Source: Vitis vinifera (Eukaryota; Streptophyta; Magnoliopsida; Vitales; Vitaceae). From it: a stretch of DNA of 64,000 nucleotides. Below are positions 818 through 33,952 of this stretch, piece after piece. The stretch's first letter is position 1; the number at the start of each line of letters is the position of its first letter. The translations under genes and the position numbers were made by a program. A model generated the notes under the pieces. The model was given only the letters and a program-made list of their open reading frames with translations, was not told the origin of the DNA and did no database searches. The stretch spans positions 744,501-808,500 of the forward strand of contig NC_081810.1 in NCBI RefSeq assembly GCF_030704535.1, given 5' to 3'.

Positions 818-888
818 TGTAAGTTTGAGCAAAGTACCTAAAGTATCAGTTTCTTCGATATATATCAATATATACCAAGAACAAGAAA

Positions 889-8636: not shown

Positions 8637-8637
8637 T

Positions 8638-11600
8638 ATTTACTAAATTCCACTGAGAGATTGATGAAGAAAGAAAAACCTGCAGCTTGATGAATCTTAG
8701 AATGTGACTACAAGAAAACTAAAAGAATATCATGGAAAAGCTATAAAGAATACAGCAAGAAGGGAAGAAAGATTATGACTAATGCTTGGAAGCTCGAATC
8801 TTGGGGCTTACAAAAAAGTAGGATAACAGAGTTCTTTGCTATATCATTGGATTCAATACTGAACATGCCATTATCTCTGAACTCTCGTCACGGTGGATTC
8901 GAGCTTCTTTACGACAGAAAGAAGGGAAGAAAGAAACGAAAGAAATGAGGAAATAAAAAAATTAGAGAGAAAGAGGTTATGGATGAGAAATTCAAGCGAA
9001 AGAGGCTATCAGTTTCTTGAAGACTTTCTCTGAAACTCCACCCCCCCTTTACTAAATTCCACTGAGAGATTGATGAAGAAAGAAAAACCTGCAGCTTGAT
9101 GAATCTTAGAATGTGACTGCAAGAAAACTAAAAGAATATCACGGAAAAGCTATAAAGAATACAACAAGAAGGGAAGAAAGATTATGACTAATGCTCGGTA
9201 GCTCGAAACTTGGGGCTTACAAAAAAGTAGGATAACGAAGTTCTTTGCTATATCATTGGATTCAATACTGAACATGCCACTATCTCTGAACTCTCGTCAC
9301 GGTGGATTCGAGATTCTTTACGACAGAAAGAAGGGAAGAAAGAAACGAAAGAAAGGAGGAAATAAAAAAATTAGAGAGAAAGAGGTAATGGATGAGAAAA
9401 TCCAAGAGAAAGAGGCTATTAGTTTCTTGAAGACTTTCTCTGAAACTCCACCCACCCTTTACTAAATTCCACTGAGAGATTGATGAAGAAAGAAAAACCT
9501 GCAGCTTGATGAATCTTAGAATGTGACTCCAAGAAAACTAAAAGAATATCACGGGAAAAGCTATAAAGAATACAGCAAGAAGGGAAGAAAGATTATGACT
9601 AATGCTCGGAAGCTCGAATCTTGGGGCTTACAAAAAAGTAGGATAACGGGGTTCTTTGCTATATCATTGGATTCAATACTGAACATGTCATTATCTCTGA
9701 ACTCTCGTCACGGTGGATTCGAGATTCTTTACGACAGAAAGAAGGGAAGAAAGAAACGAAAGAAAGGAGGAAATAAAAAAATTAGAGAGAAAGAGGTAAT
9801 GGATGAGAAAATCCAAGAGAAAGAGGCTATCAGTTTCTTGAAGACTTTCTCTGAAACTCCACCCCCCCTTTACTAAATTCCACTGAGAGATTGATGAAGA
9901 AAGAAAAACCTGCAGCTTGATGAATCTTAGAATGTGACTGCAAGAAAACTAAAAGAATATCACGGAAAAGCTATAAAGAATACAGCAAGAAGGGAAGAAA
10001 GATTATGACTAATGCTCGGAAGCTCGAATCTTGGCGCTTACAAAAAAATAGGATAACGGAGTTTTTTGCTATATCATTGGTTTCAATACTGAACATGCCA
10101 TTATCTCTGAACTCTCGTCCCGGAGGATTCGAGCTTCTTTACGACAGAAAGAAGGGAAGAAAGAAACGAAAGAAAGGAGGAAATAAAAAAATTAGAGAGA
10201 AAGAGGTAATGGATGAGAAAATCCAAGAGAAAGAGGCTATCAATTTCTTGAAGACTTTCTCTGAAACTCCACCCCCCCTTTACTAAATTCCACTGAGAGA
10301 TCGATGAAGAAAGAAAAACCTGCAGCTTGATGAATCTTAGAATGTGACTGCAAGAAAACTAAAAGAATATCACGGAAAAGCTATAAAGAATACAGCAAGA
10401 AGGGAAGAAAGATTATGACTAATGCTCGGAAGCTCGAATCTTGGGGCTTACAAAAAAGTAGGATAACAGAGTTCTTTGCTATATCATTGGATTCAATACT
10501 GAACATGCCATTATCTCTGAACTCTCGTCACGGTGGATTCGAGCTTCTTTACGACAGAAAGAACGGAAGAAAGAAACGAAAGAAATAAGGAAATAAAAAA
10601 AATTAGAGAGAAAGAGGTAACGGATGAGAAAATCCAAGCGAAAGAGGCTATCAGTTTCTTGAAGACTTTCTCTGAAACTCCACCCCCCCTTTACTAAATT
10701 CCACTGAAAGATTGATGAAGAAAGAAAAACCTGCAGCTTGATGAATCTTAGAATGTGACTGCAAGAAAACTAAAAGAATATCACGGAAAAGCTATAAAGA
10801 ATACAGCAAGAAGGGAAGAAAGATTATGACTAATGCTCGGAAGCTCGAATCTTGGGGCTTACAAAAAAGTAGGATAACGAAGTTCTTTGCTATATCATTG
10901 AATTCAATACTGAACATGCCATTATCTCTGAACTCTCGTCACGGTGGATTCGTGCTTCTTTATGACAGAAAGAAGGGAAGAAAGAAACGAAAGAAATGAG
11001 AAAATAAACAAATTAGAGAGAAAGAGGTAATGGATGAGAAAATCCAAGAGAAAGAGGCTATCAGTTTCTTGAAGACTTTCTCTGAAACTCCACCCCCCCT
11101 TTACTAAATTCCACTGAGAGATTGATGAAGAAAGAAAAACCTGCAGCTTGATGAATCTTAGAATGTGACTGCAAGAAAACTAAAAGAATATCACGGAAAA
11201 GCTATAAAGAATACAGCAAGAAGGGAAGAAAGATTATGACTAATGTTCGGAAGCTCGAATCTTGGGGCTTCCAAAAAAGTAGGATAACGGAGTTGTTTGC
11301 TATATCATTGGATTCAATACTGAACATGCCATTATCTCTGAACTCTCGTCACGGTGGATTCGAGCTTCTTTACGACAGAAAGAAGGGAAGAAAGAAACGA
11401 AAGAAAAGAGGAAATAAAAAAATTAGAGAGAAAGAGGTAATGGATGAGAAAATCCAAGAGAAAGAGGCTATCAGTTTCTTGAAGACTTTCTCTGAAACTC
11501 CACCCCCCCTTTACTAAATTCCACTGAGAGATCGATGAAGAAAGAAAAACCTGCAGCTTGATGAATCTTAGAATGTGACTGCAAGAAAACTAAAAGAATA

Positions 11601-12398
11601 TCACGGAAAAGCTATAAAGAATACAGCAAGAAGGGAAGAAAGATTATGACTAATGCTCGGAAGCTCGAATCTTGGGGCTTACAAAAAAGTAGGATAACAG
11701 AGTTGTTTGCTATATCATTGGATTCAATACTGAACATGTCATTATCTCTGAACTCTCGTCACGGTGGATTCGAGCTTCTTTACGACAGAAAGAAGGGAAG
11801 AAAGAAACGAAAGAAATGAGGAAATAAAAAAATTAGAGAGAAAGGGGTAATGGATGAGAAAATCCAAGAGAAAGAGGCTATTAGTTTCTTGAAGACTTTC
11901 TCTTAAACTCCACCCCCTTTACTAAATTCCACTGAGAGATTGATGAAGAAATAAAAACCTGCAGCTTGATGAATCTTAGAATGTGACTGCAAGAAAACTA
12001 AAAGAATATCACGGAAAAGCTATAAAGAATACAGCAAGAAGGGAAGAAAGATTATGACTAATGCTCGGAAGCTCGAATCTTGGGGCTTACAAAAAAGTAG
12101 GATAACGGAGTTGTTTGCTATATCATTGGATTCAATACTGAACATGCCATTATCTCTTAACTCTCGTCACGGTGGATTCGAGCTTCTTTACGACAGAAAG
12201 AAGGGAAGAAAGAAATGAAAGAAAGGAGGATATAAAAAAATTAGAGAGAATGAGGTAATGGATGAGAAAATCCAAGAAAAAGAGGCTATCAGTTTCTTGA
12301 AGACTTTCTCTGAAACTCCACCCCCCTTTACTAAATTCCACTGAGAGATTGATGAAGAAAGAAAAACCTGCAGCTTGATGAATCTTAGAATGTGACTG
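8638..12398. repeat. Tandem array of ~410-bp units, right part
   Basis: The array continues after the LTR fossil. A partial unit (8638-8710) is followed by nine complete units starting at 8711, 9120, 9530, 9941, 10351, 10762, 11172, 11582 and 11990. The period is 408-411 bp. The array ends near 12398, where the sequence changes to CAACACCACCGTGAGAG. Several units (9256-9465, 9523-9876, 10005-10286, 11236-11517) stay open for 69-117 codons because AAATGA reads AAAGGA. With the left part there are at least 14 complete units. Confidence 0.9.
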
Positions 12399-14440
12399 CA
12401 ACACCACCGTGAGAGCTCTACAGAAAACCAGGGAAAAATGAGGGAAATGAGAGAGAGAGAGTTGGTTGTTTTCTTGTTATATTTCCTAGAACACCTATGG
12501 AACTATATTTATGGAGTTAAGTTTTACTAATTATAATTATCATTTGATAAATTTAATGTTTATAACTAATCAATGCCATTAACAACATCATAATAAGTAT
12601 AAAAATTCAATTTCTATTATTTAATCAAAATATTATTGCTTTGGTTGAAGTGGGCTTTGTTTAGATGTATTACTTAATAGCTTAGGGCTATGTTTGATTC
12701 TTTGAAAGTATTAAGAAAAGAAAAAAAAAATGTTAGATAAAAAGATTTTCTTATGTTTGGTTTCATTATGAAAAATATGAATGAAATCAAAATATAATTA
12801 AAAAAATTTAATTGCATGTATTTAAAAATTATTTCATCCGGAATAGGAAAAATAAGTGAAATAAGCTTGAAGTAGTATAAAAAAATTTTTAAAAAAAATT
12901 ATTGATTTGAAATCCTTTGTTCTTCTTTTATTTTCTTAATTTCACTATTTCTTTCCTTTTCTACTTTTCTTTGTCATTTTTTCCCTTACATTTTTCCTTC
13001 AAATTTATATATGGAACCAAACATAGCCTAAACGGTCAATTTGGTATTAATACAACTTTTAGAAGAATCACTCTTTATTATATTTGAAGGCAACTCAATT
13101 AGAATATAAAGAAATTGAATACAAGAGAGAAACTATATTTTCAAAAGTACCATAACTATGTGCAAATTTTTATTTTTTATTAAATATATGTAGAAATACT
13201 ATCAACTTATTCTTCTATAAGTTTTGAAAATAGAAATATGTCAAGTCTGTTGACAAAATTCTCAATACTAGACAAGCAAGAACATTAATAGAGAGGTAAC
13301 TAAGAGAGTCGTGTTAATTATACAATTTTAATGTACATATATTTTGGTAGATTTATATATATAGATTGATGAGCATGATAATCACCCAATAATCGGTGAA
13401 AGCCAATAAATACCACCAACTTGTCATGACCAATAGAATTGTGTTATATTACCATGTCCTGAAATTAATCTTGCATTTACCGTAAATTTTTACTATAAAA
13501 ATTTAAAGAAAGTTATAATTTAGTGTAAAATTAAATGACCCAAGGTGTAATTTATAATTACCTAGTAAACATGTTGTCTTTTATGAATTACAAATTAATG
13601 ATGTTCATCACTATCAAATAAGCTGTTAGTAAGGTGAACCATCTTGTTCAAAGGGATGAAAAAATATATATTTATATTTAATTAAAAATCTTTAATAATA
13701 ACATATTTGTCAACTGCACATTAACTTTCACTTGTACTTCTACTGATAAAATGCTATAGGCAAAGGCTATCCCACATAAGTTCAAAACAACTTATTAAGA
13801 GAAGGATGCTGACATGGGGCTCACCCTTCTACCTTACATCACTTAAAATGCTGGGAAGCACTTATGCAAGATCTGTGATTCATTTGTTGTATACCCAGCT
13901 GCCAACATCCCATCCAATGCAGACTTTTCAATCTCAAATCATCTGAGATGCAAATTCAAGCATTTCATTAGGGATGAGGAGCAAGTTTGGCCGTTAATCA
14001 AGTAGCTGGTGAAAAGAGATGGTGATTGTGCAAGAATGGACTGGAGACTCCTCTCATCACTCTTCAACCAACATGTGCATCACAGAAAATGGGGCAAGTT
14101 TAGGATGGACATATGTGTCCATTCTATTTTGAGAAATTCATTTCCAAAATACCATTTTCCATGTAAGAGAAAAAGTTAGAAAGTAGTGACTGATCTCATT
14201 AGCATTTCCTCATATCCAAACCTTAAAGTTCCTTGAGTAAGAAATACAGTTTCTGTTTCTCCAAGTGAATATTTCAAAAGTTTCAAACCTTAAATAATGA
14301 GAATTAATCACGGTAATTCCCTACCAGGAAAATCCAAAAATTAACAAATGTATCATTGATAAGGCAAGACCAAAATTGAAGTCAATATTTTATTGGGAAT
14401 AAACAATTGAACACCATGGTGGTGGAGTGATGAATCACAG
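12399..14440. other. AT-rich intergenic spacer
   Basis: No reading frame with recognisable similarity is seen. The region holds one MITE (12,686-13,028) and low-complexity A/T runs. A more balanced stretch near 13,790-14,120 resembles neither a known protein nor an RNA that I can recognise. Confidence 0.5.
12686..13028. mobile_element. MITE, GGCTATGTTTGRTTC family, copy 1
   Basis: Starts GGCTATGTTTGATTC and ends GGAACCAAACATAGCC, giving a terminal inverted repeat of about 15 bp around an AT-rich core of about 340 bp with no coding capacity. Related copies occur at 14,544-14,841 and 51,594-51,899. The TIR type suggests a hAT-like non-autonomous family, but no clean target duplication was identified. 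Confidence 0.6.
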
Positions 14441-18565: not shown

Positions 18566-21500
18566 TCTCATGAAGAAATAGTGCATGGACTGACCGTTCT
18601 TGAAGCAAATTCTATAGCTTGCCTTTCAAATGCATCAATTCCTTGAAGACGACTTGGAATGATTTCTTGTAACTGTTGATAATTATAGGGCCCAAAACAA
18701 AGCCTTTGAATACCCATTCGGCTTGAAATACGGGGAAGCAACTTCTCTGGAAGATCCATGGTATTTGCTATCCCTGAATTTAGATTTATAACACAGCATT
18801 ATAATTGTATTACTACAACTGCTTTTGTTGTAGCAATTTATCACCTGTGCCACTCACAATACCTTATTCTATAAAAGGAAACAACATTACATGGCTATAT
18901 TTGTCACAAGAGAAGATAAACCTTGTTAAAAAAATAAAAGTCCTACCTATCACGATCAATTTGGAATGTGGCTTAGTAGGCCAATCAAGAATGTTGTACA
19001 GAACCTGTAATAAGAAGCAAGGATTGTGGACATAAGAGTTTCTAAACTTTACAGTACATATAAAAATGTAAATGTAAATGAAAAGCGATTACTAGTATGT
19101 TTTATGACAAACAAGTTACCGACTGATTTCTGGTTACGAGAAGATCAAGTTCATCAATAAGTAGAATACAAGGCCGGATCTCCTCTTTGGCAATTTTGCT
19201 TTCATCTGCAAATCGCTCATTCAGCAAGTGAAGAGCCTTTTTCCAACCAACCCTATGACCACTTAATGCCTCATATATAACCTGAAAGAAGTTATGGACA
19301 ATATATTATGGGGAAACAAAAGGAATTCAGTAATAAAATATGAAGCAGATAAACTTCATGTAAGCCATTACCCTGTAAATGTTCTCTGATGATGCCAATT
19401 TTAGACCATTAATATCCACAAAACAGTAGGGTTTTATGCTTCCTGCATCAACTTCAGACCTTAGATTCCTCATTACTGAAAGTACACTCATTGTCTGCAG
19501 TTTGGAGCGGATAAAGAGTACAAAAAAGTAATACTCATTTAAGCAGCAAAAAGATCAAGAAAAAACCTATCGCCTGTTTGAAATAACGCAACATTATTTA
19601 ATTATTTACAGCCAACAGATCTACCTTGCCAGTTCCAGGAACACCATGAATGTACAGGCAACGTCCCAGACATTGATCATTGCAGATGGCACCTTTTATA
19701 AATGCAGTTATCTCTTCCATTTCCCTACATAAAAGCCCATGTCCTCTATTAGAAACTAGTGCGCAAAAAAATGGAACCTATAAAAATTCAGGTCTCACAT
19801 ACTTAATCCTGCAAGGTAGAGACTTGGGCAAAGTTGTCAACAGAAGTGTTGCTTTTGCTCTTTCAAGTTCAGTCTGCTTATGGCATCTCACATGCCCTAG
19901 AATTTTCTTTGTCCCAATTTTGTTTAGCCCAAAGATCCTTCCCTTCCATGAATTCTGCATTGTTTACATAACTAATTAATTCTCTTCTTCAGGTAACCAC
20001 CAAGCTAAAGGCCACAGATATGAATAAAATGTACAGTGTCCATACTGCAGCAACTGCATGAGCTGGGGATGGTCCACTGGGTAAATTGTTCACATTTCCC
20101 TCTTCATATTCCATGTCTTCTTCAGTATCAGAGCCTGAGTCCTTTCCATAATCCCAATCTACATCATTGTCAGCTTCTTCATTGCCCTGACAAATGAGAT
20201 AGTAAGCCCATAAACTAGAAGAGAACACAATAATCCTCAAATTGCTACTTCGATTGTCTAAAATTCTTACTTCTTCACCATTATTGATCTCTGCAAGACG
20301 CTTGAAACTGTGCCAATGCATGTCATATTCATATTCACATAAGAAAATATCATCACCTTCATTATTGGCCTTGGTAAATTCTTTTGGGCTCATTACATTG
20401 CAAAGCCTAATGACGGATTCCATCTGCAGCAACAAAACAAACATTAGCACAACTATGGACTTAAAAGTGAAAAGTTCCACCACTCTTAAAAATGGCATCA
20501 GGGCTAAAGAGAGTGAAACGAAAGCAGAGAAGGAATCAGAAAGACAAAGTTAACATGCTAAAGTTAGAGATTAAATCCGAAGGTGAAGGAGAGATCAAAA
20601 GAAGATTATGAAGTATAACAAGATACCCAACAAATATATAACCCAAGAGTTATGTAGGTCCTCAAACCCAATCAGATTCTATAGAAACTAAATTCTATTC
20701 CAAGCCTAACCAGCACATACTCATAACATAGAAATTTACTTTTATTCCAGGCCTCGTTTATTGCATTGTATACTAGGAAATAAAATATCATAGACAAAAA
20801 AGGAAAATCACCTCAATGTCAGCAAAATCATTTGTCCTATAAAGCTCCCTTCTTAGATTATGCGGCTGTCTTCCAGCTGCAGTCTCTTCAGGGATAATAT
20901 ACCAACGCCCCGAAACCAGTAAGTACCATCCACTTCTTTCCATATACTGCACATCTCCAACATAAAAAAATAAAATAAAATAAATAAAAATAAAATGATC
21001 CATAGTCCACACAAGTACTACTACAATAAAATAATAAGAATTCATATCATTTTCTCTTTTTCTTGTCCCTCAGAAGCAGCAGAGAAGAAAAGAAAACAGA
21101 AATTCAAGTCCCATGTTTTTGGTCATTTTGCTCCTTAGAAATTAAAAACTCAAATCAATCAACCCAAATAGTTATGTCAAACTCGCTTTATAATGAACGA
21201 CATAGCATTCAAGTTTCAAATTGATTCCTTTCCTTTTCCCACATTTTATCAGTAACCAAACAGACAATTTAGCAAAAGGAGATAAAGGACTATACTTTTC
21301 AATATGAGCCGCCCATAAATCACTGGAAAGAAGCTTCTCCCTTGCAGTTCTCTTCTGTTTCTTCCCTTTGGGTGGATTTGGAAGAACAACTTCCTTACCC
21401 AATTTCCGGGCCTCGCAAAACTGGCATATCCAATCCCCTTCTGGAACCTCCTTCAGCGGAGGTTTCAAACACTTCAAATGAAACCCACCCAGGCAATCAT

Positions 21501-21872
21501 CACAGGCCTTCCAGACTTGAAACATTCCCTGCACTCCTCCGCTTGCAATTCTTCATCATCCGAGCTCGCATTTTCCCTTCTTTTCACATACACATCATCG
21601 CCCACCGCAAATTCACCCCCATCATACACAACCTTCTTGTAATAAACCCGCTTCTTCGGCCTCAAACTCGCATTCCTCGAAACCCTAGCCCTAGTCACTA
21701 CGTTTCCCTCATCAGGCCTCTTCCTCTTCCGCGCCTCTGACACATCAGGAGTGACCGGAAGCTTCGATCTTTCAACGTTTTCCACATATTTTGGGGTTCT
21801 TGAAGAGTGCTTTTCAGGTTCAAAAAATTGCAGGGACGACCGGCGAGATGAACGGCGAAGATCTTGTAACAA

Positions 21873-21965
21873 TTTCTTTTAAACATATAGTAAATAATTG
21901 AAATAGTTAACAACATTTATATAAAAAATTGATTACTTTTCGAACAAAAACATGGAAAGAGATAA
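21873..21965. other. Gap between ORC1 relic and MULE
   Basis: An AT-rich stretch of about 90 bp between the first surviving ORC1 codons and the left MULE target duplication. No ATG in frame with ORC1 is present, so the usual ORC1 amino terminus and promoter are not visible here. Confidence 0.6.
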
Positions 21966-21974
21966 TTTTACAAA
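21966..21974. repeat. 9-bp target site duplication, left
   Basis: TTTTACAAA directly abuts the left end of the MULE and is repeated exactly at 32,142-32,150 next to the right end. A 9-bp duplication is the hallmark of Mutator-superfamily insertion. Confidence 0.92.
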
Positions 21975-22075
21975 GGGATAACCGATTAAAAGGGACAAAA
22001 GTCCCTCAATATTGCAAAACTAACCCTTTACTTATTTAGGTCTCAAAAATGACCCAATTCGGACAAAAATACCCC
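21975..22075 (+). repeat. MULE left terminal inverted repeat
   Basis: Begins GGGATAACCGATTAAAAGGG and matches the reverse complement of 32,041-32,141 over about 101 bp, including the blocks TCCCTCAATATTG, AAAACTAACCCT and GGACAAAAATACCCC. Weaker matching continues inward through CCTTTTTCCCTCC, so the inverted repeat may extend to about 150 bp. Confidence 0.92.
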
Positions 22076-22101
22076 CTCACCCCCTCAGTTATCTTTTTCA
22101 G

Positions 22102-22201
22102 CCCTTTTTCCCTCCAACTCCAATTTTCTCTTGTATTGTGTCTCTTCGTTACCCTTTTTCCCTCCAACTCCAATTTTCTCTTGTATTGTGTCTCTTCGTT
22201 A
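22102..22201 (+). repeat. Exact 50-bp tandem duplication inside the MULE left end
   Basis: 22,102-22,151 and 22,152-22,201 are identical 50-bp units beginning CCCTTTTTCCCTCCAACTCC. They lie just inside the left terminal repeat, in the probable leader of the peptidase gene. The right end has a single diverged counterpart, so the duplication is specific to this end. Confidence 0.9.
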
Positions 22202-22480
22202 CCCTGCAAACCCATTTGTTCCATCTGTTAACCTGCGAAAAAGAAATCACGAAGGATTTTTCCGTTTATTGCAAGAGAACAAAAAGGCAACACAATACAA
22301 AGAAAAAACAGAAAGTAAGTTTCACTGTTTCATTCTTTGATTTTGGTTTTTCGAACTGTATATATGAATCTTCATCCATGAAATGAGAAGAAACCCTAAG
22401 TGTCTTATTTTGGTTCTTATTTTTTTCTTTTAATCAAACCCGATTTTTCATCTTTCTGATATTGTGTGTTGATTCAGTTC

Positions 22481-25400
22481 ATGAAAATGGAGGAAGAAAA
22501 AAATTCTGTGATGAAAAATACGAAACAGAAGAGGTATAAAATTTTGGAAAAAAAGAGAAGTGAAAGAAAGCCAGGTTTTGAAACCTCTTCATCGTCATCA
22601 GAAAATGAGAAGAAATCAACTGATTCAGTAAGCATTAATTGTCTACTTGAAATTTTGATTTTTAATTTTTTTTTTAATTTTATCATTTTTAATAGATTTT
22701 TTTTTGTGAATTTATTTTTCATGAATTGATAATCTAATTGTTGGAAATTTTCTCAGTGAGGTTATAGTCCAAGGTTTAAAGCAATATTTGAATTATTAGA
22801 AAAAACTAAACTTAACTACTATCAAGTTTACCATCAAAAGGTTTTGAAAATTTGTGTAATGAAGTTATTTGTTATGAATTTATAACGTATTTGAATATAA
22901 TTTTTGTGAAATTATTTTATCCAAATATTTGGAATTTTGATTTAAATATATATGTTAAGAAGAAACTGAACTTAACTGCTATCAAGTTCATTGTCAGGTT
23001 GCAATTTCAAAATGGTTTTGTTTTGTTTCAAATTTCAATAAACACTAGAATAATGTCTCCAATTTTTTGTAGCTGCAACTTACTAAAATATAATAGCTTC
23101 AATTGCATTAGTAAAATAATATCTTTAGAATATTAGCATTTGACATGACATCCTTAAATAATAGGAAAATAAAGTGTATGTTAAGAAGTAATACAAAATG
23201 ATGGATTTAACATAGTTGGATAAGTTTGGTAATATAATTTTGCTCAATTTATATTGATATTTTTACAATTTGTTATTATTTTGCAGATTGACATTCCTCC
23301 TCCTCTCCTATCTTTTATATCTAAAATATCTAAAGAGGAGTACTTTCCTGGAAAAATTGCATGTTTGTCTCACTTGGTAGCCATTGAAAATATTAAGAAG
23401 AAATTGACTGAACCACAATTGGAGATGTTTAGAAAATCATGTTTTGGTCATTTTTTACTCCTTCCCGAACTTAGATTTTCAGCCCAAATTGTTCATCAAT
23501 TGTTGTTACGTCAATGTAAAACCAAAAAAGACAATGAAATATGGATTTTATTAAAGTCAAAGGGCTTAAGATTTAGTAAAGAAGAGTTTGCATTGATTAC
23601 GGGCTTGAGTTTTGGTCCTATTACAAAATGTGATAAAAAATCATTACGAATAAGGGACACATACTTTAAAGGAGAAAACAAGGTGCGTAATGATGAGTTG
23701 GAGAAAGTTTTTCTTTCTTTAGGAGAGGAAAAGAAAAAGAAAAAGAATAAGAAAAATAAAAAAAAAGGATTTGAAGATGAAGAGGTGATAAAGTTGGCAC
23801 TTTTGTATTTTTTAGAGCATGTTTTATTTGGGAAAGAAGGAAAAAATTTGATAGATATGGAATGGGTTGCTTTGGTTGATAATTTGGAGGCTTTTAACAA
23901 GTATCCATGGGGGGGGATTTGTTATGAGAGGACACTATTTGGTTTGCAAAGAGCTTTGGAGAACCGGGTATCCAAATACCAAGATAAAAAGAAAACAAAG
24001 GGAGAAGCTGCAGTTGAAGCATATAGTCTTGTTGGATTTCCATATGCATTCCAGGTTTGGGCATACGAGGCTATTCCACTTATTGGATTGAAATATGCCA
24101 CTCGTGTATCTGAGAGGTATCCTCGAATATTAAATTGGAGTGCAACAAGTGCTCCAAGGTCTACTGAGGTTGAAAATGTATTTCTAGAGCCTCATGTAAG
24201 TAATTCTTTACCTTTACATTTTAAGAATGCAATTATAAATATTATTGTATTGTTGTTTATTAATAATTATATTTGATTTGGACTTTGTAGTTAACTTTTC
24301 ATTCGCTTCTAACACCCACTTTAGAGGAGCAACAACAAGACTATTACAAGCATGTAGATAAACAAGGAGCTTCAGCAGAAATGTTGCACCAATCAAATGC
24401 CTCACAAGATGCCAAGAATGATGACTTAAGGCATGAAAAAAGCTCATCTGACACTGCTGCATATGTTGCTGCTGCTACTGCTGCAATGGCAGAAGAAACA
24501 ACAAATGATGCAATCACCCCATCAATAGAGGTAACTTAAACTAAACTTAGCCATCATAAATAATGCATGCATGTTTTTTTTTTTTTGGTACTTTATTTAA
24601 TATAAGATGTTCATTCCATAATTAACATGTGGAACCTGACCTTAACTATAAATAAACAAGAGCTATTACAAAAGCAACCTATTCATCGGTTGATTACAAG
24701 GGTAAAATAGGTATTTACAAAGCTAAAAATCAAGCAAAATATCTTGGAGAACCGGTAGTGGAATAACATCAACAATGTCTCAAAACAGGGGATTCAAAGG
24801 AATTTCGCAATGTGCCTAATCCTTCTTGCGAAATTTTCGCAATGTGTTTCTTCATGGTGCGAAATGGCAAAATTTCGCACCATGAAGAAAATCCCCTTGC
24901 GAAATTTTCGCAATGTGGCTCTTCATGGTGCGAAATGGCAAAATTTCGCACCATGAAGAAAATCCCATTGCGAAATTTTTCGCAATGTGAAATTCACCTT
25001 GCGAAATTGGCCATTTGACATGATGCAGTTGTCTTCCGAAGGCCATATCTTCCTCATTTCAGCTCCAAATCATACACGGTTTGAAGCGTTGGATTCTTGA
25101 CTTCCTAAGCTTTCAAATGGTATATAACATGCAAAAATTGGACTTCGGGAAGTGCCTCAAAAGTGCGAAAGAAGACTGAAGCTGTTTTCTTCACTCTGTT
25201 TTCTTCACTCTGTTTTCCTCTTCTCCATTGCTTGTGCTCGTGTTTCCACTTGAAATTCAAGCCTATAAACGTACAAAATCCTTGCTTAACTCGCCCAAGT
25301 AGCTCCTCCAACAATTGGCATGCTTGAATTGGTTCATAAGCTGATAAAAACATGTAAACTTGCCACAAAATGGTTAAAACCAATTACTAAGGATCTTATG

Positions 25401-27407
25401 AATTAATTGGGTTAAATGAATATGATTACTACTCAAAGGTGCTTAAAACCATTATAATTAGGTCTACAAAATAGCACTTTTTGGTAGTAATCACAAAGTG
25501 AACAAACTTGTCATAATATATATATAAATATTGTAAGTGTTAAATTTTTATTTCATTTATGTGCAATATGTGCAGAAATTATGGATGGAGTTTGTGAAAT
25601 TCAGACAAAGCTCAGAGTTAAATTTCAATCATCTAAAGAAAGAAATTGAAGGACTCAACTTGAAGATGGATGAATTGAAACAACTTTTATTAGAAGTTAG
25701 TGACATGTTTACTTGTTTAAATTTTCTAATACTTCAATGTTTTGACATTTGTGTTTTCTCATATTTATTATTATTGGGTGGTGTATGCAATTTTAGGTTA
25801 AGAGTTCGAATGAGGAACACGGTATGCATGACACTAGATTCAGAAAATCTAGTACAAAAGAAAATGATAACAATATGGGCTTTGATTTCCAGACTGGAAT
25901 TTTTGAGGATGTTACAGATGATGAAGTGGAGAGAAATGACATTCCCATGGATGTGAACATTGATATGGAAGCTTCTAGAAACCTTCAGCTTGCAGAAAAA
26001 CACATGACTAAAGAGTTGAAAGATGACTGCTCTATTGATGATCCAGTTATTGATATTGCCAAGTTGTTTGGTACCCCAACTATGTCGGGCGAGTTTTCAG
26101 TATATGTCATACCTCACCATCTATCTCCTGCCATTTTTAAGCGAAGGCGTGAGATTAAAAAGTCTCATATCTTACAGCACCCTTTTACAGATCCCACCAA
26201 GAGAAAGAAACTAAGAAAAGAGATTGAGAAACCATTAACTTCATTTGATCCTTTGCATCCAATCTCTGAAGAAGCATTAGAGTCCTTTCAAAAGTGGATG
26301 AGTGATGACCAAGGGTAAGTTGTATACATCCATACTTGTAAATTTGTGTTCTTCACAAGTTATAAAATTACTAATGTTTTTATTTTTTTTTTTATGTCAA
26401 AGGTCCACAATTGACATTGACTACATGCATATAGATAAAAAATGGTTTCAATCACTGTCTAATCATGGTTCATGGCTTGCTGACACGGTTTGTAAATGAT
26501 GCATTTTGTTTTTATTTTTATTTATTATTATGTTCAGCTTACAACCAAATAATATAACTAATTTACTTTATTGTAATTGTTAGCACATTGATGTTGCCTT
26601 CTTCTTTTTCCGGAAGCGGCGAATAGAAAATCCTCATCTTTTTTCCCAAAAGTTTACCACAGTGGATACTATGTTTTGGGTATGTGTAGTTTGAATTTTA
26701 GTTAACATTTTTAATTTTTTTGTAATAATGAATCTTATGATCTTGGTTATTTATTTATGTATATTAACTTTATTCTATGTAGCAAAATGCTCAAGCAAGA
26801 TGGATTAAGCATGGCAAGAAGTGGAACCAATTCAAATTACTAGAGAATGACATCCTTATTGATTATGCCAATGGTTTGCAGCCTCTTTATTCTGTCAAAT
26901 GGCCTGATGTTGACATTGTGTATGTCCCTATCAATGTTCGGGCTAGTCACTGGGTATTAGGAGTTGTCCACCTTCATCGAAGGATTATATACGTATATGA
27001 CTCATTGATGGGCATCAATAATAATGCAAGATTGCAAGTTGCCATTAAACCATTAGCCAAATTGTTGCCGCATATATTGAATGCAATAGCATATTATGGT
27101 TTTCATGGTGACACAAAAGTTAACTACCAAGAATGGGAAATTGAACGGCTGCAAGATATTCCTCAACAGGAAAATGAGTAAGTGATCTTAAATTTACTTT
27201 CATAACTTATACACTTAATCTTTAATAATAGCCCTAACATTGATTATTTGTGTACCATGCAGTGGTGATTGTGGCATGTTTGTTATCAAATATGCTGAAT
27301 ACTTGATGCACAACCATCCATTGAAGTCATTAACAAGTGCACGAATGGACTGGTTTCGGGAAAAGATGGCAGCAGAGTTATTTTATATGAAATACTTGCC
27401 TATGTAA
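22481..27407 (+). CDS. Ulp1-type (C48) SUMO-protease-like protein of the MULE
   Basis: Nine exons, all with GT-AG borders and matching phases: 22481-22627, 23287-24195, 24291-24530, 25576-25695, 25797-26314, 26403-26487, 26584-26679, 26783-27177, 27263-27407. They give an open frame of 884 aa. Residues about 50-350 form a DUF1985-like domain (KEEFALITGL core), common in plant Ulp1-like genes of transposon origin. A Lys-rich run follows near residue 200, and a charged linker precedes the peptidase. The carboxy end is a C48 peptidase with His-761 (SHWVLGV), Asp-778 (YVYDS), Gln before NDGDCG and Cys-840 (GDCGMF). All catalytic residues are present. Family knowledge: Ulp1 enzymes process or remove SUMO; what the MULE-borne forms do is unknown. 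The ATG at 22,481 is in exon 1, and an alternative at 22,487 is in frame. A 5'-UTR intron may end at 22,476. Confidence 0.85.
22810..22987. promoter_or_regulatory. Two 18-bp dyad motifs in intron 1 of the peptidase gene
   Basis: ACTTAACTACTATCAAGT at 22,810-22,827 and ACTTAACTGCTATCAAGT at 22,970-22,987 match the consensus ACTTRA-N6-TYAAGT found in the central array. Being intronic, they could act on the peptidase gene. A regulatory role is inference. Confidence 0.6.
24574..25493 (-). mobile_element. LTR-derived fragment (Athila-like), fossil, nested in MULE intron
   Basis: The minus strand starts TGATTACTACC at 25,493, as the LTR at 3230 does, and shares a stretch with it at about 25,025-25,170 (matching 3,490-3,630). 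GTGCGAAA/TTCGCAC motifs are repeated at about 24,800-25,010. The plus-strand left border is a run of 13 T. It looks like a single LTR or part of one, with no internal domains, and is broken. It sits wholly within intron 4 of the peptidase gene, whose exons remain in frame. Confidence 0.7.
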
Positions 27408-27591
27408 TGAATTCATGTTGATATTTCACATTTTGATAATGTAGTTGGATGGTTTGTTATATGTAATTGGATAGCTTCATATATGTAGTTAGGCATTTTG
27501 ATAAATGTAGTTGGACAGGTTGATATATCTACTTGGATATTTTGATGAATGTTGTTCGATAGTTATGTATACAATTGACCTTTTAAACTAA

Positions 27592-28225
27592 ACTTCAATG
27601 TTGTCAAGTTGTTATGGGTACAAACTTGAAGATAATTAAGTCCACAGTCTTAATAGAACACATGAACTTAACTACTATCAAGTTAACTGTGAACAAACTT
27701 GACAGATATTAAGTCGAAATCTATTCCAGAATAACATATTTAATCTGGACTTAACAGGTATCAAGTTGATCTTCTATAGACTCATAAGAAGTTGTGTCTA
27801 CAATTGTCATTTTTACCTGAACTTAACTATTGTTAAGTTATTTTATGAACAAACTTGAAGGTAGTTAAGTCCACAGTCTTCAGACAAAACCTGAACTTAA
27901 CTATTGTCAAGTTGTTTTATGAACAAACTTGAAGGTAGTTAAGTTCACAGTCTTCAGACAAAACCTGAACTTAACTATTGTCAAGTTGTTTTATGTACAA
28001 ACTTGAAGGTAGTTAAGTCTACAGTCTTCAGACAAAACCTGAACTTAACTATTGTCAAGTTGTTTTATGAACAAACTTGAAGGTAGTTAAATTCACAGTC
28101 TTCAGACAAAACCTGAACTTAACTATTGTCAAGTTGTTTTATGTACAAACTTGAAGGTAGTTAAGTCCACAGTCTTCAGACAAAACCTGAACTTAACTAT
28201 TGTCAAGTTCCTTATCAATAAACGT
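27592..28225. repeat. Tandem array with 74-bp period built of 18-bp dyads
   Basis: Between the two convergent MULE genes, 74-bp units repeat about five and a half times (27,821 to 28,208), preceded by more diverged copies from 27,592. Each unit has two 18-bp dyad motifs, ACTTAACTATTGTCAAGT and ACTTGAAGGTAGTTAAGT, whose starts are 32 bp apart and then 42 bp from the next. Start positions: 27592, 27624, 27666, 27697, 27749, 27821, 27853, 27895, 27927, 27969, 28001, 28043, 28075, 28117, 28149, 28191. No coding sequence overlaps. Confidence 0.9.
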
Positions 28226-28511
28226 GAGAACAGTTGAGTCCATAGTTTGAGAATAAACATGTAATTTTCATTTATACTTTATACATAACTCATCATAACA
28301 TATATGTACAAAAGTAACAAATATCTCCATTTCTATGGTTATGCAAAAAAAGGGGATCATTATTACAATATTCATCTATGTGCTTATCCTATCACCTTAT
28401 ACAAAAAAGTAACTTACATTTCTGTTCACATGGGTACCAAAAAAACAAAAAAGCTCACTATTACAATTTTCATTCCATGTAAGTTCATAGAGTACCAAAG
28501 CTATCATGATA

Positions 28512-31500
28512 TCAAGGGATTGGTCGTTTGCATGTTTTCCGATTATGCCCATATTGACCACATCGACTACAACGAGATGTGCGCTTGCCCTCTCCACCAG
28601 AAGGAATTCTTACTTTCCTTGGTCTTCCTGTTGGGCGTCTTGTTTTAGGTGGTAACACAACTTTATCACGAATATGATTAGGTACTACCCAATCTATTTC
28701 ATTTCCAGTTGGATAAATACACTCTGAATATGAAGATAACAATGTTTTAGTAGTAAAATACTTGGAGCACAAAGTGTAACATGAAATGTTGTAAAATCTA
28801 CAAGCAGCAATAGCATGTGCACATGGAATATGATCAAGATCAAATTGTCGACATGTGCATGAACGAGTGTCTAAATTCACTTGAGCACTAATGCCAGCAT
28901 AGTTAACATTACACTCCTTGGAGTTGATAGGTTCCACTAGATATGTTGCTGACATATTATACCTAGAACGAAGTTCTCCATCAGCCCACATGGTAAGTTC
29001 AGTTGACATTGACATTGCTTGTTGTTGACGAGTCACAAACCATTTTTGAAGTAAGTTTCTCAATTCTTCAACCAATTGCAAAACCGGAAGATCTCTAGCA
29101 TTTTTCAACACAGCATTAAGGCTTTAAACGATCCCTGTCGTCATGATATTATATCTTTTTTCGGTAGAATATGAACGTGTCCATCGATCAACACCTATAT
29201 CCATCAAATATCTTGCTGCTCTTGGGTCAATCATCTCTAGTTGCCCAAATATAAAATTAAACTCTGAAACACGATAAGCATGGGCAGCATCATGGAACAA
29301 CTTATGAATTACAGGATTCTTGAACTTTGTCTTCAAATTTTGTCCAACGTGATAAGTACAGACACCATGCCTCGCATGGGGAAATACTTTATGTACTGCT
29401 TTCTCAATGCTACCATGTCGATCTGATATCACAAACAAATCATCAATGTGTCCAAGTGCATCATGTAGTTTTTGTAAAAACCACTCCCATGAGGCATCAT
29501 TTTCTGAATCACCAATCCCAAAGGCTAAAGGGTATATCTGATTGTTGCCATCTTTACACGCTGCAATAAATAAAGTCCTTAAGTACTTTGCTTTCAAAAA
29601 TGTCCCATCAACTGCAACCACAGGCCTTATTGATGTGTGAAACCCAGCAAGAGATGCACCAATCGACATAAAAAAGTATTTGAATTGATTATCACAATCA
29701 GTAACTATATCAGTAATGGTACCAGGATTTTTTTGCTCTAAAACATAGCAATAGGATGGTAAAGTGTTATAAGACTCCTCAGGTGATCCCCTAATAGAAC
29801 CTAGAGCAAGTTCTTTGGCTCTCCACGCCTTATCATAACTGATTTGAATGCCATACTGCTTTCGAATGTCTGCTACAATGTCTTTTGGTCGAAATTCACA
29901 ACCAATCCCTTGATATGTTTCTCTTATACTCTCACCAATCAACCAACTACTTGCATGTCGATTGTCACGAGACATCATATCTAACCGACAAGTGTGTGTT
30001 GAATAGAATTTCATTATTTGAAACATATTCGAAATCCCCAACTTGGTAGCACGAACTCGCCACTTGCATTCTTTATCAAAACATTCAACAAGCAATAACT
30101 TAGTAGTGGATTTAGTTGTTTTGAACTCAAACTTCCTTTTCAGAGCCATCATATACAACTTCCTTTGTAATTCTTTCTTACTTGAGTAAATTTGGTGTTC
30201 TTCTAGATGGTCATCACTAATTCCACTAACTATAGGTTGTTGCATCATGTTTTGTCTTTCATTTGCTACATCTTCGATTATAGTGGGATTGTCATGTATG
30301 AACCCATCACTTGTATCAATCATGGTCAAGATTTCTGCACTCTGAGCTGAACCAGTTCTGAATGAGCCAATTTGGGTCACTTGCTTATCACTAGTAGGGT
30401 TAGTATTCATTCTATAATCCTCCTCATTAATTGCAGTCTCATTCATGTTCCAATCATGAACTTTATACCCTTCATGTGACTCATTTTGAAATCTTGGTCC
30501 ATTTTCACCATCAACAGTAAGAGTTTCAACTGAATCACAATGAATGTGTCTACTTTTATGCATCAACATTGAGTCCTCATTCAATTCTTTATCAATCTCA
30601 GAAGACATATGACATTCGAAATAAGAATTGCAAATTGATTTCTGATTGTGATTATCAATTCTCTTTTCAACTATGATGCACAATGGAACAGACAGCTTAC
30701 CATTTGTATAATTTAAACCAATAAAGAATTTCACATCCCCATCATCAGTTAGTTGTATAGGACTTGTGGGTATGTTGGCATTGAATACATACTTCATTGA
30801 AAGAAAACAATTTGTTGGATCTAGCTTCAAAATATGATGGACAACCCCTAATAACTCTTTATATGATATAGTTTTCGGGATCTCAATGCCTTTACCTTTA
30901 CTTCCTTCGAAATAGAAAACATTTCCATCTCGTACCCATTCTCCTTCATATAAAAGCATTATTCCTACTTCATCAACCACTGAAATAACAGAATAATTCA
31001 ATTAGTGGCATCAACAAACAATATTAGAATATTTTTTAGTTACATCATAGCATTAGCACCAATAAGTAGGTATTAATTTTAAAAAACTCATTCATTATTA
31101 AATACATATTATTTCATTACACATATTTATTTTTTTAATAAACAACAAATAAATAACATTATTAATCATCTTTACTACCTCAAATAATACCAATAATGAT
31201 ATAGAAATACAATGTATATAGTTATTAAATAAATTCAGACATTGTAACTCTAAACTATTTTAAACAATAAAAATATATTTGTTTACTAAAAGATTGGTTA
31301 TGTTGTAATTTATTTAATGTCAAGGCTAATTTGCAAATGATTCAACTCAAATTGAGTATAATTAAATACAATAACAAAAATATAATGTTACTATAAAATA
31401 ACTATATACAATCTTAACTTACTTCAAGTTCAACTTAACACACGTCAAGTTCAACTTAATATCCGTAAGGTTTTGATATATAACTAAAAAAGATAACTTT

Positions 31501-31627
31501 ATATATTATGTCAAAACCCTATTAACACATATATTTACATCTATATAAAGCACAAATGTGCAAACAATACCAAAACCATCATAAAATTCCATAAGTTTTA
31601 TTACTTACCATCATTTGATTTTTCCAT
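28512..31627 (-). pseudogene. MULE transposase with one in-frame stop
   Basis: Two exons. Exon 1 (31627-31609) is ATG GAA AAA TCA AAT GAT G; a GT donor joins it to exon 2 (30979-28512), for 829 codons including both stops. An amino-terminal MULE-type domain at residues 10-110 is followed by a charged, variable region. A basic WRV-type DNA-binding (FLYWCH/WRKY-like) domain spans about 275-350 (ECKWRVRA). The DDE transposase shows Asp-464 (AVDGTFLKAKY), Asp near 526 (ISDRHGS) and the C-x2-H motif (CTYH). A SWIM zinc finger starts near 714 (CTC...CAH), and a carboxy-terminal CCHC knuckle is present (CSRCGQYGHNRKTC). The TAA at 29,124-29,126 replaces the Glu usual in MULE sequences of the form IVESLNAVL. 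The frame is otherwise open. It is convergent with the Ulp1 gene. Confidence 0.88.
31433..31471. promoter_or_regulatory. Pair of 18-bp dyads in transposase intron 1
   Basis: ACTTAACACACGTCAAGT (31,433-31,450) fits the dyad consensus. A weaker copy, ACTTAATATCCGTAAGGT, starts 21 bp further on at 31,454, two helical turns away. Both lie between transposase exons 1 and 2. Confidence 0.55.
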
Positions 31628-31848
31628 ATAGACAATGTTTCTCCACGCTACACTTTTTAAGCTGATTGTTTCCTTCTTTTAATCCCTTTTTTCATGGCTG
31701 TAAATGATATTAAAAAAATTATAACAATTTCAAACTTATTTAAATATTTACTACATCTCATTAAATGTTTGAAAATATTCAATAAATAAAACATGAAAGA
31801 AAAAAAATATGGAAAAATAAAAATAAACGTACACTGTTTATCCAACCA

Positions 31849-31870
31849 CAACTTAAAGCGCTTTAAGTTG
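31849..31870. promoter_or_regulatory. Perfect 22-bp palindrome upstream of the transposase
   Basis: The 18-bp core ACTTAAAGCGCTTTAAGT at 31,851-31,868 is flanked by CA and TG, so 22 bp are exactly self-complementary. It is the most symmetrical member of the ACTTRA-N6-TYAAGT family. It lies about 220 bp upstream of the transposase ATG on the minus strand, where an operator or core-promoter-proximal site would be expected. The function is inferred. Confidence 0.7.
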
Positions 31871-32040
31871 AAGAAATCTGAAGAGAAACTGTGTGAGACT
31901 TGAAGAAATGCACTGAAAAGAGAGAAACGGAATAACAGGAGAAAATGAAAAAAATGAGAAAGTGGAAGAAATAATAAAAAGGAGGTGAATGGAGGGAAAT
32001 AAAATTAGAATGGGAGGGAAAAAGGAGTTGATGTAGCTGA

Positions 32041-32141
32041 GGGGTATTTTTGTCCAGATCGGACCATTTTAGAGGCTATTAAAAGTGGAGGGTTAGTTTT
32101 ACAATATTGAGGGATTTTTGTCCCTTCTGATCAGTTTTCCC
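32041..32141 (-). repeat. MULE right terminal inverted repeat
   Basis: On the minus strand it begins GGGAAAACTGATCAGAAGGG and matches the left repeat over about 101 bp with a few substitutions and small length differences. It lies about 415 bp upstream of the transposase start codon, so, as in other MULEs, it may contain promoter sequence. Confidence 0.92.
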
Positions 32142-32150
32142 TTTTACAAA
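32142..32150. repeat. 9-bp target site duplication, right
   Basis: TTTTACAAA, identical to 21,966-21,974, abuts the right end of the MULE. Confidence 0.92.
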
Positions 32151-33952
32151 TATGCCGAGAATTTCACCTTTTTTAACCAATTATCTCTATTTTTAACATG
32201 TTTTTTTATATATTTAAATATTTTTTTAATTTTAAAAATTACTTTTATATGTAGTATTTTATTTTTAATCATTCTTCATATTTATATAATTATTTTTTAA
32301 AATAATTAAAAATAAATAAAGTGAAAACAACTAAAAAAATGTAATGCATATACACTTTTTTTTTTTTTCTGTTTTTAAGAATAAAAAATTATTTTATGTT
32401 TTTTTTTTAAAAGTATTTACTATTTTTTTTATTACTAAATGTGTTTTTCTATTTTTTTTATTAAATGGGGTAAGTTATTTCAAACTATTTTTTAAAAAAA
32501 AATAAAAAAAGCCAAGGGACTTTATAATTTCCAAAAATGTTTATAATCTATCTTTTGTTTGAAAAAAATTAAGTGAGTGTTTGTTTTTTTGGCTTTTTAC
32601 TAAAAGTAATTTATTTTCAAAATTTAATTTTTTTTTCATAATTTATTATAAACTTTTTGTTGAATTGAAAAAAACCAAAATTTTGACTTTTTATAAATAG
32701 AAAAAGTAAAATATTGGTTTTTCTTTACTTTTTAATGCTTAATAAAAATAAAATACTATAAAAATAAATAATTTAATACTTAACACTATTAAACATTAAA
32801 GTTTTATTTAAAATTAAGTAAAATAAATAAATACCACCTACGAGTATGATTGGTTTCCAAACAATCTAAAGGGAATGTGAAAAAAAATTTGAAATTATGA
32901 ATTTAATAGTGCTCCTAAGAAATTAATTTATATACAAATTTCTAATTAATTTTACTCAATTTTATTTTCTTATATATATTTTTCATCGTAAACCTAACAT
33001 GAGAAAATCATTTTTTTAAATTATTTTCCTTTTCTTTATCTTGATTGAAAATTAACACTAATCAGTAAGTTGTACAATAAAACCTCGATAAATTAAAAAC
33101 CTTTATTGAATAATCAAATTTTCAATCTCAACTCAAATTAATGTATTAAATTAATAACATCCTTAAAATCACATCTTTAAGTTTTAATATCACAACTCTT
33201 TCCATCCAATTTTGTTTTTTATGTTTTACAATTTATAATCCTTCCTTATTTTTAGGGTTTATTAAACTTTTATATATTAACATTTTACTACATCCTTTTA
33301 GGGTTTACAACTTTTTATGTAGTTTACATTACAGTAGAAACATAATATTCTTTATAAATTAATAGATATTAATTTATCAAAAAATTGATAAATTATTCGT
33401 TTATTAATGAATCAATGATTCCATTAAGATAATAATTTCTCTTCATGTTAAGAGTATTATTTTATAAAGTTTTAGCATACTTCTAAATTAGACTAATCTT
33501 TTTTTAAAAAAGTTATAAAATAGAATAAATAGAAGTAAAAACTTTTAAGACCATAAAATTAGCTTCAATACCATATGTTAAATGACCAATTATTTAAAAA
33601 ACTTAAAGTGTAAGTAACCAAATGAATAATGTATGTCATAAATAACTCAATCTTGGAGGTGAAGGTTGATATCATAGTACAACATAAATTAAACTTTTCT
33701 CTATTAATTTTATAACTTGTACATTTCATTGTATTATTGCAATCGGGGTATTCCTCCTTATGAAACTTCCTCACATTAAAAAAATAAATAAATAAATTCC
33801 AAACCAAAACCAAAACCAATACCCACTCTCTTTTCTTCCCCCTAACCATGTCAACTTCACCTGATCAGTTACCGCATGAACTGAGATCATGACAAAGAGA
33901 GGCATACATCACATGTAGTTTGCAAGATTTGTTGCAGTAAATTCTATGTTCA
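32151..33952. other. Strongly AT-rich spacer
   Basis: A/T homopolymers and a degenerate MITE-like stretch at about 32,860-33,060 (gtttccaaacaatct ... ccttttctttatcttgattgaaaat). No gene is seen. Confidence 0.5.

Follow-up and report, generated by a model that had tools for sequence, protein, structure and literature searches.

The window analysed here, a stretch of 64,000 nucleotides of the Vitis vinifera genome (contig NC_081810.1, positions 744,501 to 808,500), contains a Mutator-like element (MULE) that carries two convergent genes, one encoding a protein with DUF1985 and Ulp1 domains and the other a transposase, and that bears many copies of an 18-bp dyad, ACTTRANNNNNNTYAAGT, most of them in a central array. 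This array is real, specific to one group of MULEs and conserved within that group.

The element and its genes

The DUF1985-Ulp1 gene was assembled from open frames and domain matches, its splice sites and the joining of its exons into a single gene being predicted from open frames and GT/AG signals. The His of SHW, the Asp of YDS and the Cys of GDCGM, all residues of the Ulp1 C48 protease, are visible in the window gene, and the second exon holds a DUF1985 domain, which points to a likely function; the original prediction had recognised Ulp1 correctly and had overlooked DUF1985 in the same gene. At E up to 1, VANC21 of Arabidopsis (9lnj/9lnk) was the only Protein Data Bank sequence that the DUF1985 exon matched, with E 3.2e-4 for the exon and E 3.2e-5 for a three-sequence profile; as judged from this match, the gene is homologous to VANC21. 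A match of the same gene to PMD was sub-threshold (19 bits, cut-off 34.9).

The transposase gene and the DUF1985-Ulp1 gene converge, which puts the main array between their 3' ends and so not at a promoter. The window transposase is interrupted by an in-frame stop, and an open frame of 829 amino acids is present in nine other listed copies. The inverted arms of the element (21965-22075 and 32041-32151) are 79% complementary with the target duplication counted in. Within the large intron of the DUF1985-Ulp1 gene, at 24825-24989, there is an inverted and tandem repeat, TGCGAAAT...ATTTCGCA, which looks like part of a separate insertion; GCGAA words resembling those of this repeat recur at 3643-3729 and 8562-8627. 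The positions of all features of the element are given in Table 1.

Table 1. Features of the MULE, with positions in the window.
Feature	Position	Strand	Remarks
9-bp target duplication TTTTACAAA	21966-21974 and 32142-32150		sole two copies within 21900-32300
MULE, 10,167 bp	21975..32141	.	inverted arms and flanking target duplication
Left terminal inverted repeat, ~101 bp	21975..22075	+	dyad-free
Right terminal inverted repeat, ~101 bp	32041..32141	-	dyad-free
DUF1985-Ulp1 gene (VANC-like)	22481..27407	+	open frames, domain matches
Predicted exon 1	22481-22627	+	DUF1985-Ulp1 gene
Predicted intron 1	22628-23286	+	DUF1985-Ulp1 gene
Dyad, forward type	22810..22827	+	intron 1 of DUF1985-Ulp1 gene
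Dyad, forward type	22970..22987	+	intron 1 of DUF1985-Ulp1 gene
Predicted exon 2	23287-24195	+	303 amino acids, holds DUF1985
DUF1985 domain	23503..23934	+	Pfam E 5.6e-23
Ulp1 C48 exons	near 26783-27178 and 27258-27407	+	last exons of DUF1985-Ulp1 gene
22-bp tandem repeat TTTGATATATGTAGTTGGATAG, 6.1 copies, 71%	27432-27564		between Ulp1 stop codon and dyad array
Central array, 16 dyads (14 exact, 2 with one mismatch)	27592..28208	.	mostly forward/reverse alternation
Array dyad starts 1-8	27592, 27624, 27666, 27697, 27749, 27821, 27853, 27895
Array dyad starts 9-16	27927, 27969, 28001, 28043, 28075, 28117, 28149, 28191
74-bp tandem repeat, 5.3 copies	27815..28209		two dyads per unit (32 + 42 bp)
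Transposase gene	28512..31627	-	DBD_Tnp_Mut, MULE and SWIM domains; C-terminal CCHC by eye
Predicted intron	30980-31608	-	transposase gene
Transposase-intron dyads, 21 bp apart	31412..31471		31412 (1 mismatch), 31433 (exact), 31454 (degenerate, 2 mismatches)
Predicted exon 1	31609-31627	-	transposase gene
Dyad, perfectly symmetric	31851..31868		transposase upstream

Dyads in the window and across the genome

Exact matches to ACTTRANNNNNNTYAAGT numbered 18 in the window, all between 22810 and 31868, compared with a mean of 0.12 and a maximum of 2 in 100 dinucleotide shuffles. When one mismatch was allowed, 23 dyads were found, 21 within the MULE and two outside it (5306 and 46762); at the two-mismatch level the excess was modest (46 dyads, 25.3 expected). 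The 21 dyads of the MULE comprise two in intron 1 of the Ulp1 gene, 16 in the central array, two in the transposase intron and one upstream of the transposase, and all of them lie in predicted introns or between genes. Most dyads of the element are asymmetric, with one ACTTAA half and one ACTTGA half, and their orientation alternates in the array; the 18 exact ones are 10 forward, 6 reverse and 2 symmetric. The terminal repeats contain no dyad even when two mismatches are allowed, an argument against a function at the ends of the transposon. These counts agree with the original prediction of about 20 non-coding copies divided in this way and spaced at 32, 42, 31, 52, 72, 32, 42 and 21 bp; its further remark that no other copies were noticed in the window is right for exact matches, but it does not extend to the genome, where pattern scans of 495.6 Mb placed a looser form of the motif at 2274 places, versus 400 for the pattern read backwards.

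The original prediction had proposed a genome scan for concentration of the motif, and in that scan the sites cluster in one MULE group and are not equally common elsewhere. The A-type dyad, ACTTAACNNNNGTCAAGT (A being the window's own family), was found at 324 places (183 + 141), versus 2 for the backwards pattern, and for 95 of the 100 listed A-type sites a listed match to DUF1985 or to the family transposase is no more than 10 kb away, which is also true of 31 of the 46 listed sites of the symmetric type, ACTTAACNNNNGTTAAGT; the 10-kb zones around such matches make up 0.45% of the genome. In the range for which the lists are complete (contigs C1-C3, and C4 to 11.24 Mb), a site accompanies 12 of the 18 loci with DUF1985 and 13 of the 14 with a family transposase, and none of 28 other MULE loci, drawn from 150 listed, has a dyad site.

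A search of the genome for DUF1985 gave at least 91 matches, merged into 72 loci, and the best 30 of these, the window copy included, were taken with 1.5 kb on each side and grouped by DNA identity into families A (16 loci, the window's family), B (7) and C (7); automatic grouping merged A and C, and their division was made by hand from the DNA identities. Between families the 3.4 kb stretches align in part, at about 64-74% DNA identity, and the DUF1985 exons of B and C share 53-67% protein identity with the window's over stretches of at least 148 amino acids. An exact dyad was present at 23 of the 30 loci, and a dyad with at most one mismatch at 28 (exceptions L021 and L024), although some one-mismatch dyads, such as those of L009, may be chance matches; the backwards control pattern was present at none of the 30.

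Arrays occupy the corresponding place beside the Ulp1 3' end in families B (L035, L038) and C (L036, L037, L043, L044). A fourth, older group, D (L039, L051, L052, L053), also has arrays, mainly with 32/41 spacing; a search with the Ulp1 protein matched L051 and L052, and at the DNA level the Ulp1 end of the window gene has matches in L052 and L053. No coding match was found at L039, which belongs to D through its array-bearing relatives L051-L053; that it is an unrelated element was considered and dropped, since these relatives have arrays and Ulp1-like matches. L038 has an array and no listed DUF1985 match, and its 94% identity to another copy places it in family B, and thus both clusters that were opened away from family genes, L038 and L039, belong to the group. 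Arrays are therefore found in relatives of all four groups, A, B, C and D.

The array unit of family A measures 32 + 42 = 74 bp, and that of B and C is mostly a dyad, 14 bp, a dyad and 23 bp, that is 32 + 41 = 73 bp; the number of 73/74-bp units changes among copies, and higher-order periods of 146 bp and 219 bp are present. Dyad pairs 31-32 bp apart also recur outside the array. In B they precede the DUF1985 domain by about 0.4-0.5 kb (spacings 32, 43, 32), and in one B copy they lie immediately upstream of the transposase match; in C, as in five loci of family A (L022, L026, L029, L030, L034), they follow about 1.1 kb after the start of the DUF1985 domain. The deletion derivatives L041 and L042 share one junction, by which window positions 23015 to 26951 are gone, the DUF1985 exon included, and both retain the intron-1 dyads and the full array. 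Several more transposase copies have 92-94% identity, a few stops and no listed DUF1985 nearby, which suggests, with two copies (L041, L042) opened, that a derivative without DUF1985 has multiplied. Retention of the array in such copies is expected of a target used in trans, and plain hitch-hiking fits as well.

The dyads could also be bound by the transposase, which would in that way regulate its own gene or bridge elements in transposition. The transposase has a DBD_Tnp_Mut domain and dyads both in its intron and upstream of it, and an A-type site lies within 10 kb of 21 of the 25 family transposases in the listed range; the terminal repeats, however, are dyad-free, and the dense array lies about 3.9 kb from the nearest end of the element, downstream of the transposase gene. 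The lack of sites at the 28 other MULE loci is neutral here, because each transposase could have its own site. We regard this explanation as unlikely.

Just left of the element, open frames at 19989-21878 on the reverse strand contain a PHD finger (E 1.2e-7) together with a weak match to BAH, and the nearest long frame of this region ends 97 bp from the MULE; the order of PHD and BAH recalls plant ORC1, a tentative label under which the MULE may lie immediately upstream of the gene. Tandem repeats at 882-3229 and 8632-12401 (5.7 and 9.2 copies, 96%) are apparently one 410-bp repeat, apart from the MULE. Another repeat seems to carry the sequence ACTTGATGAGNYTYAAGT, which fits the loose motif, on contig C1 at 13.98-14.66 Mb and at window position 5306.

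Conservation and spacing of the half-sites

For the comparison of half-sites between families, array units were located by their 14-bp spacer and not by their dyads, a list selected by dyad match being biased toward conservation. Column agreement was higher in the half-sites (0.63 for A-B, 0.69 for A-C and 0.77 for B-C) than in the dyad centres (0.41, 0.37 and 0.40, respectively), with permutation p values of 0.0077, 0.00055 and 0.0001; agreement in the spacer was 0.48, 0.41 and 0.61. The list of family A includes mis-anchored units (at least 6 mismatches in the first dyad in 8 of 35 units, and in the second dyad in 8 of 35), and this should lower the half-site score and not raise it. The commonest halves, at four per unit, were ACTTAA (48) and ACTTGA (46) among 140 in A, ACTTAA (34) among 56 in B, and ACTTAA (73) and ACTCAA (24) among 112 in C. 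ACTTAA is paired with ACTTGA in 177 of 188 exact family A dyads (the window and 22 other A loci), whereas symmetry is the rule in B and C, with 39 symmetric dyads among the 41 exact ones of 14 loci; in C the ACTCAA half is usual in the second dyad of the unit, and in both A and C the variant halves mostly lie toward the 14-bp spacer within each dyad pair.

Among listed ACTTAAC/GTTAAGT pairs less than 15 bp apart, the gap was exactly 4 in 46 of 50. Half-site pairs 6-21 bp apart were unenriched in total genome-wide (160, versus 358 for the backwards pattern), and among the 50 listed a gap of exactly 14 was seen 42 times; an unrelated GTTAAGTCATTAACTAATCTCACTTAAC repeat accounts for 12 of these, and when its 13 places are set aside by eye, 30 of 37 pairs have a gap of 14. 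The GTTAAGTCATTAACTAATCTCACTTAAC repeat is dispersed and apparently unrelated, with places on contigs C2, C3, C5 and C6 and one further place at 13 bp. As to the original description of the motif, the fixed spacing of the dyad and the variable centre between conserved half-sites are both borne out by these comparisons, and its symmetry is not, most window dyads combining ACTTAA with ACTTGA.

The window spacings of 32, 42, 31, 52 and 72 bp gave R 0.92 at 10.5 bp, and the phase of these five non-duplicated spacings differed from jitter of up to 5 bp with p 0.0007; the best-fitting period is 9.9-10.15 bp and not 10.5. Equal spacings are not independent events, because the repeats share descent, and pooled phase p values, which treat related spacings as independent, are unreliable. 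Eight other A arrays (L040-L042, L045-L049) open with the spacing series of the window, with one 71-bp unit in L049, and off-phase gaps occur in L043 (67 bp) and L053 (58 and 35 bp). In the array of family A, five comparisons over about 254 bp, between copies that are not independent, showed 48 substitutions and not one gap; three comparisons of the mostly non-coding 5' region of this family showed 17 gaps and 209 substitutions. In B and C, indels per substitution were no lower in the arrays (1/50, 3/43 and 2/26) than in the flanks (1/30, 5/60, 2/21 and 2/23). Altogether, helical phasing as a selected trait is only partly supported, and the layout of 32 + 41/42 bp common to four groups is suggestive, not proof, of an arrangement on one face of the helix. 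Of the dimeric, one-face binding first proposed, the fixed dyad and the near-whole-turn spacing stand, and a selected phase stands in part, with the off-phase gaps and the B/C indels against it; the phase is kept at most spacings in related copies, with L043, L053 and L049 as exceptions.

A functionless, satellite-like tandem repeat, in which unequal crossing-over and common descent keep unit, spacing and dyads, would account for a 73/74-bp repeat of changing copy number and for arrays in B and C whose indels per substitution are not below those of the flanks. It does not account for half-sites that are more conserved than the nearby dyad centres in all three family comparisons, nor for dyads that stand singly or in pairs outside the array, and we consider it quite improbable. 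The palindromic units could alternatively form RNA hairpins or position nucleosomes, and the periods of 146 bp and 219 bp, with two 73-bp units approximating the 147-bp nucleosome core, are in keeping with the latter; however, the usual ACTTAA/ACTTGA pairing of family A would leave an A-C mismatch in one transcript direction, and the alternating orientation gives no consistent set of hairpins on either strand. Of the explanations considered, this one is the hardest to credit, and it is very improbable.

A candidate target of the DUF1985-Ulp1 protein

In Arabidopsis, VANC21 binds YAGTATTAY in the non-coding parts of VANDAL21, where the motif is dense and often in tandem repeats, and it hypomethylates that family; the motifs are found in introns, between genes and in terminal non-coding DNA, the VANC intron and the DNA upstream of the transposase among them (PMC5735166). 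VANDALs whose VANC genes carry Ulp1 (KIU) recognise specific motifs in their own kind, according to a review (PMC13317346), and RNA-directed methylation targets the non-coding regions of VANDALs (PMC10398659). The original statement that no such array was known from Ulp1-bearing MULEs was accordingly too strong as to kind (PMC5735166, PMC13317346). The grape MULE resembles the VANC21 and VANC6 systems in having an element-encoded DUF1985 protein homologous to VANC21, a dense short motif in introns, intergenic and upstream DNA, and tandem repeats of changing copy number that are concentrated in their own group. Because of this homology and this anatomy, the dyads can be seen as the counterpart of the VANC21 targets, and the array and the intron dyads are probably the cis-target of the MULE's own DUF1985-Ulp1 protein, acting as a VANC-like anti-silencing factor. 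A relative of VANC21 is thus a likelier binder than those originally named (the transposase, a repressor of it or a host factor).

The protein would bind each dyad as a dimer, and two dyads at a distance of 32 bp, or three turns, whose variant halves face each other, would form a cooperative unit of four half-sites. Protein would then be loaded densely on the introns and on the DNA that separates the two convergent genes, a place at which transcription reading through their 3' ends could supply RNA for RNA-directed DNA methylation, and the loaded protein would strip or block silencing marks such that both genes could be expressed. The Ulp1 domain may take small ubiquitin-like modifier (SUMO) off silencing factors at the bound site, and non-autonomous copies that bear the array would be reactivated in trans.

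Several observations weigh against this interpretation. The dyad of 18 bp differs from the VANC21 and VANC6 motifs of 9 bp and 8 bp, and its orientation alternates, whereas VANC21 motifs lie in one orientation (PMC5735166). VANC motifs are said to diverge fast between Arabidopsis families (PMC5735166) and to be quickly replaced there, whereas the ACTTAA core is constant in A, B, C and D and the variant half-site changes. Families with as little as 53-67% identity between their DUF1985 exons have this core in common, and a conserved host factor would account for that as well. No listed family gene is near 15 of the 46 listed symmetric-type sites and 5 of the 100 listed A-type sites, and in the complete-list range 6 of the 18 DUF1985 loci lack an exact site of either type at distances up to 10 kb. 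At one weak DUF1985 locus (L054) the array and the Ulp1 end seem to have been lost by deletion, and the stretches of two others (L055 and L056) contain no array and little homology to the MULE. Of the 50 loose-motif places listed (contig C1, first 14.8 Mb), 25 are in four clusters and 25 are single, six of the latter resembling, by eye, one other repeat of the ACTTGATGAGNYTYAAGT type. The off-phase gaps of L043 and L053 count on the same side, and the fold of the DUF1985 exon predicted without an alignment gave no usable model (predicted local distance difference test score 35.1).

A host transcription factor or silencing protein might bind the array, its sites having been captured by the element or exploited by the host, and a core kept across all four groups is what a slowly changing host protein would leave. 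However, a single transposon group holds most of the dense sites, each family has its own variant half-site, and the match to VANC21 supplies a candidate encoded by the element itself; a host factor is, like the transposase, an unlikely binder.

A further proposal extends the VANC-like reading of the DNA, and it is possible but doubtful: VANC-like proteins of grape would read a composite operator of two 18-bp dyads set three turns apart with their variant halves inward, repeated about every seven turns (73/74 bp), along which a one-face protein filament could form, and the code would be nearly unchanged across four families, so that the protein of one family could wake the others, in contrast to the rapid co-evolution within single families that has been described in Arabidopsis. 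The off-phase spacings (67, 58, 35 and 71 bp) lower its probability slightly. If the VANC-like interpretation is right, VANC-kind sequence-specific anti-silencing would work far from Arabidopsis and through a defined, dimer-type operator, and VANC-like reading of DNA (with a fixed dyad and a near-fixed turn), the contribution of the Ulp1 domain and cross-activation among diverged families through conserved operators would become directly testable. In work on the targeted removal of DNA methylation, the 18-bp operator would be a candidate for an address tag.

Among known transposons, VANDALs are characterised in PMC6446971 by a 9-bp target duplication, terminal inverted repeats (TIRs) of 46-174 bp, SWIM and CCHC domains, and a PMD and/or DUF protein in half of them, with TIRs described there also as absent or as short and degenerate. 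The window MULE agrees with this description in its 9-bp duplication, TIRs of about 101 bp, SWIM, CCHC by eye, DUF1985 and a sub-threshold PMD match. ULP1 MULE families of grape were described in 2008 (PMC2528002), and the window MULE may be one of them. With KIU (Kaonashi) genes and the Ulp1 MULEs of melon, rice and grape it shares a VANC-type gene with Ulp1 opposite a transposase (PMC13317346, PMC2528002); it differs in its TIRs of about 101 bp, KI-MULEs being non-TIR. VANDAL21 has three genes, VANA, VANB and VANC. Two genes were recognised in the window MULE; no VANB-like gene was seen among its open reading frames of at least 80 amino acids, seven of which were domain-scanned, and no sequence search was aimed at VANB.

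TnpA of the CACTA element En/Spm is likewise element-encoded and binds many short sites in both orientations; these sites are subterminal and serve transposition, and the protein has been linked to epigenetic reactivation. The grape system resembles TnpA in its many short sites of both orientations, its element-encoded candidate protein and the proposed link to reactivation, and differs from Spm in that its sites are internal, with a central main array and site-free ends. From the VANC21 and VANC6 systems, to which it is otherwise similar in protein and site distribution, it is further distinguished by the near-helical spacing of 32 + 41/42 bp that is common to four groups.

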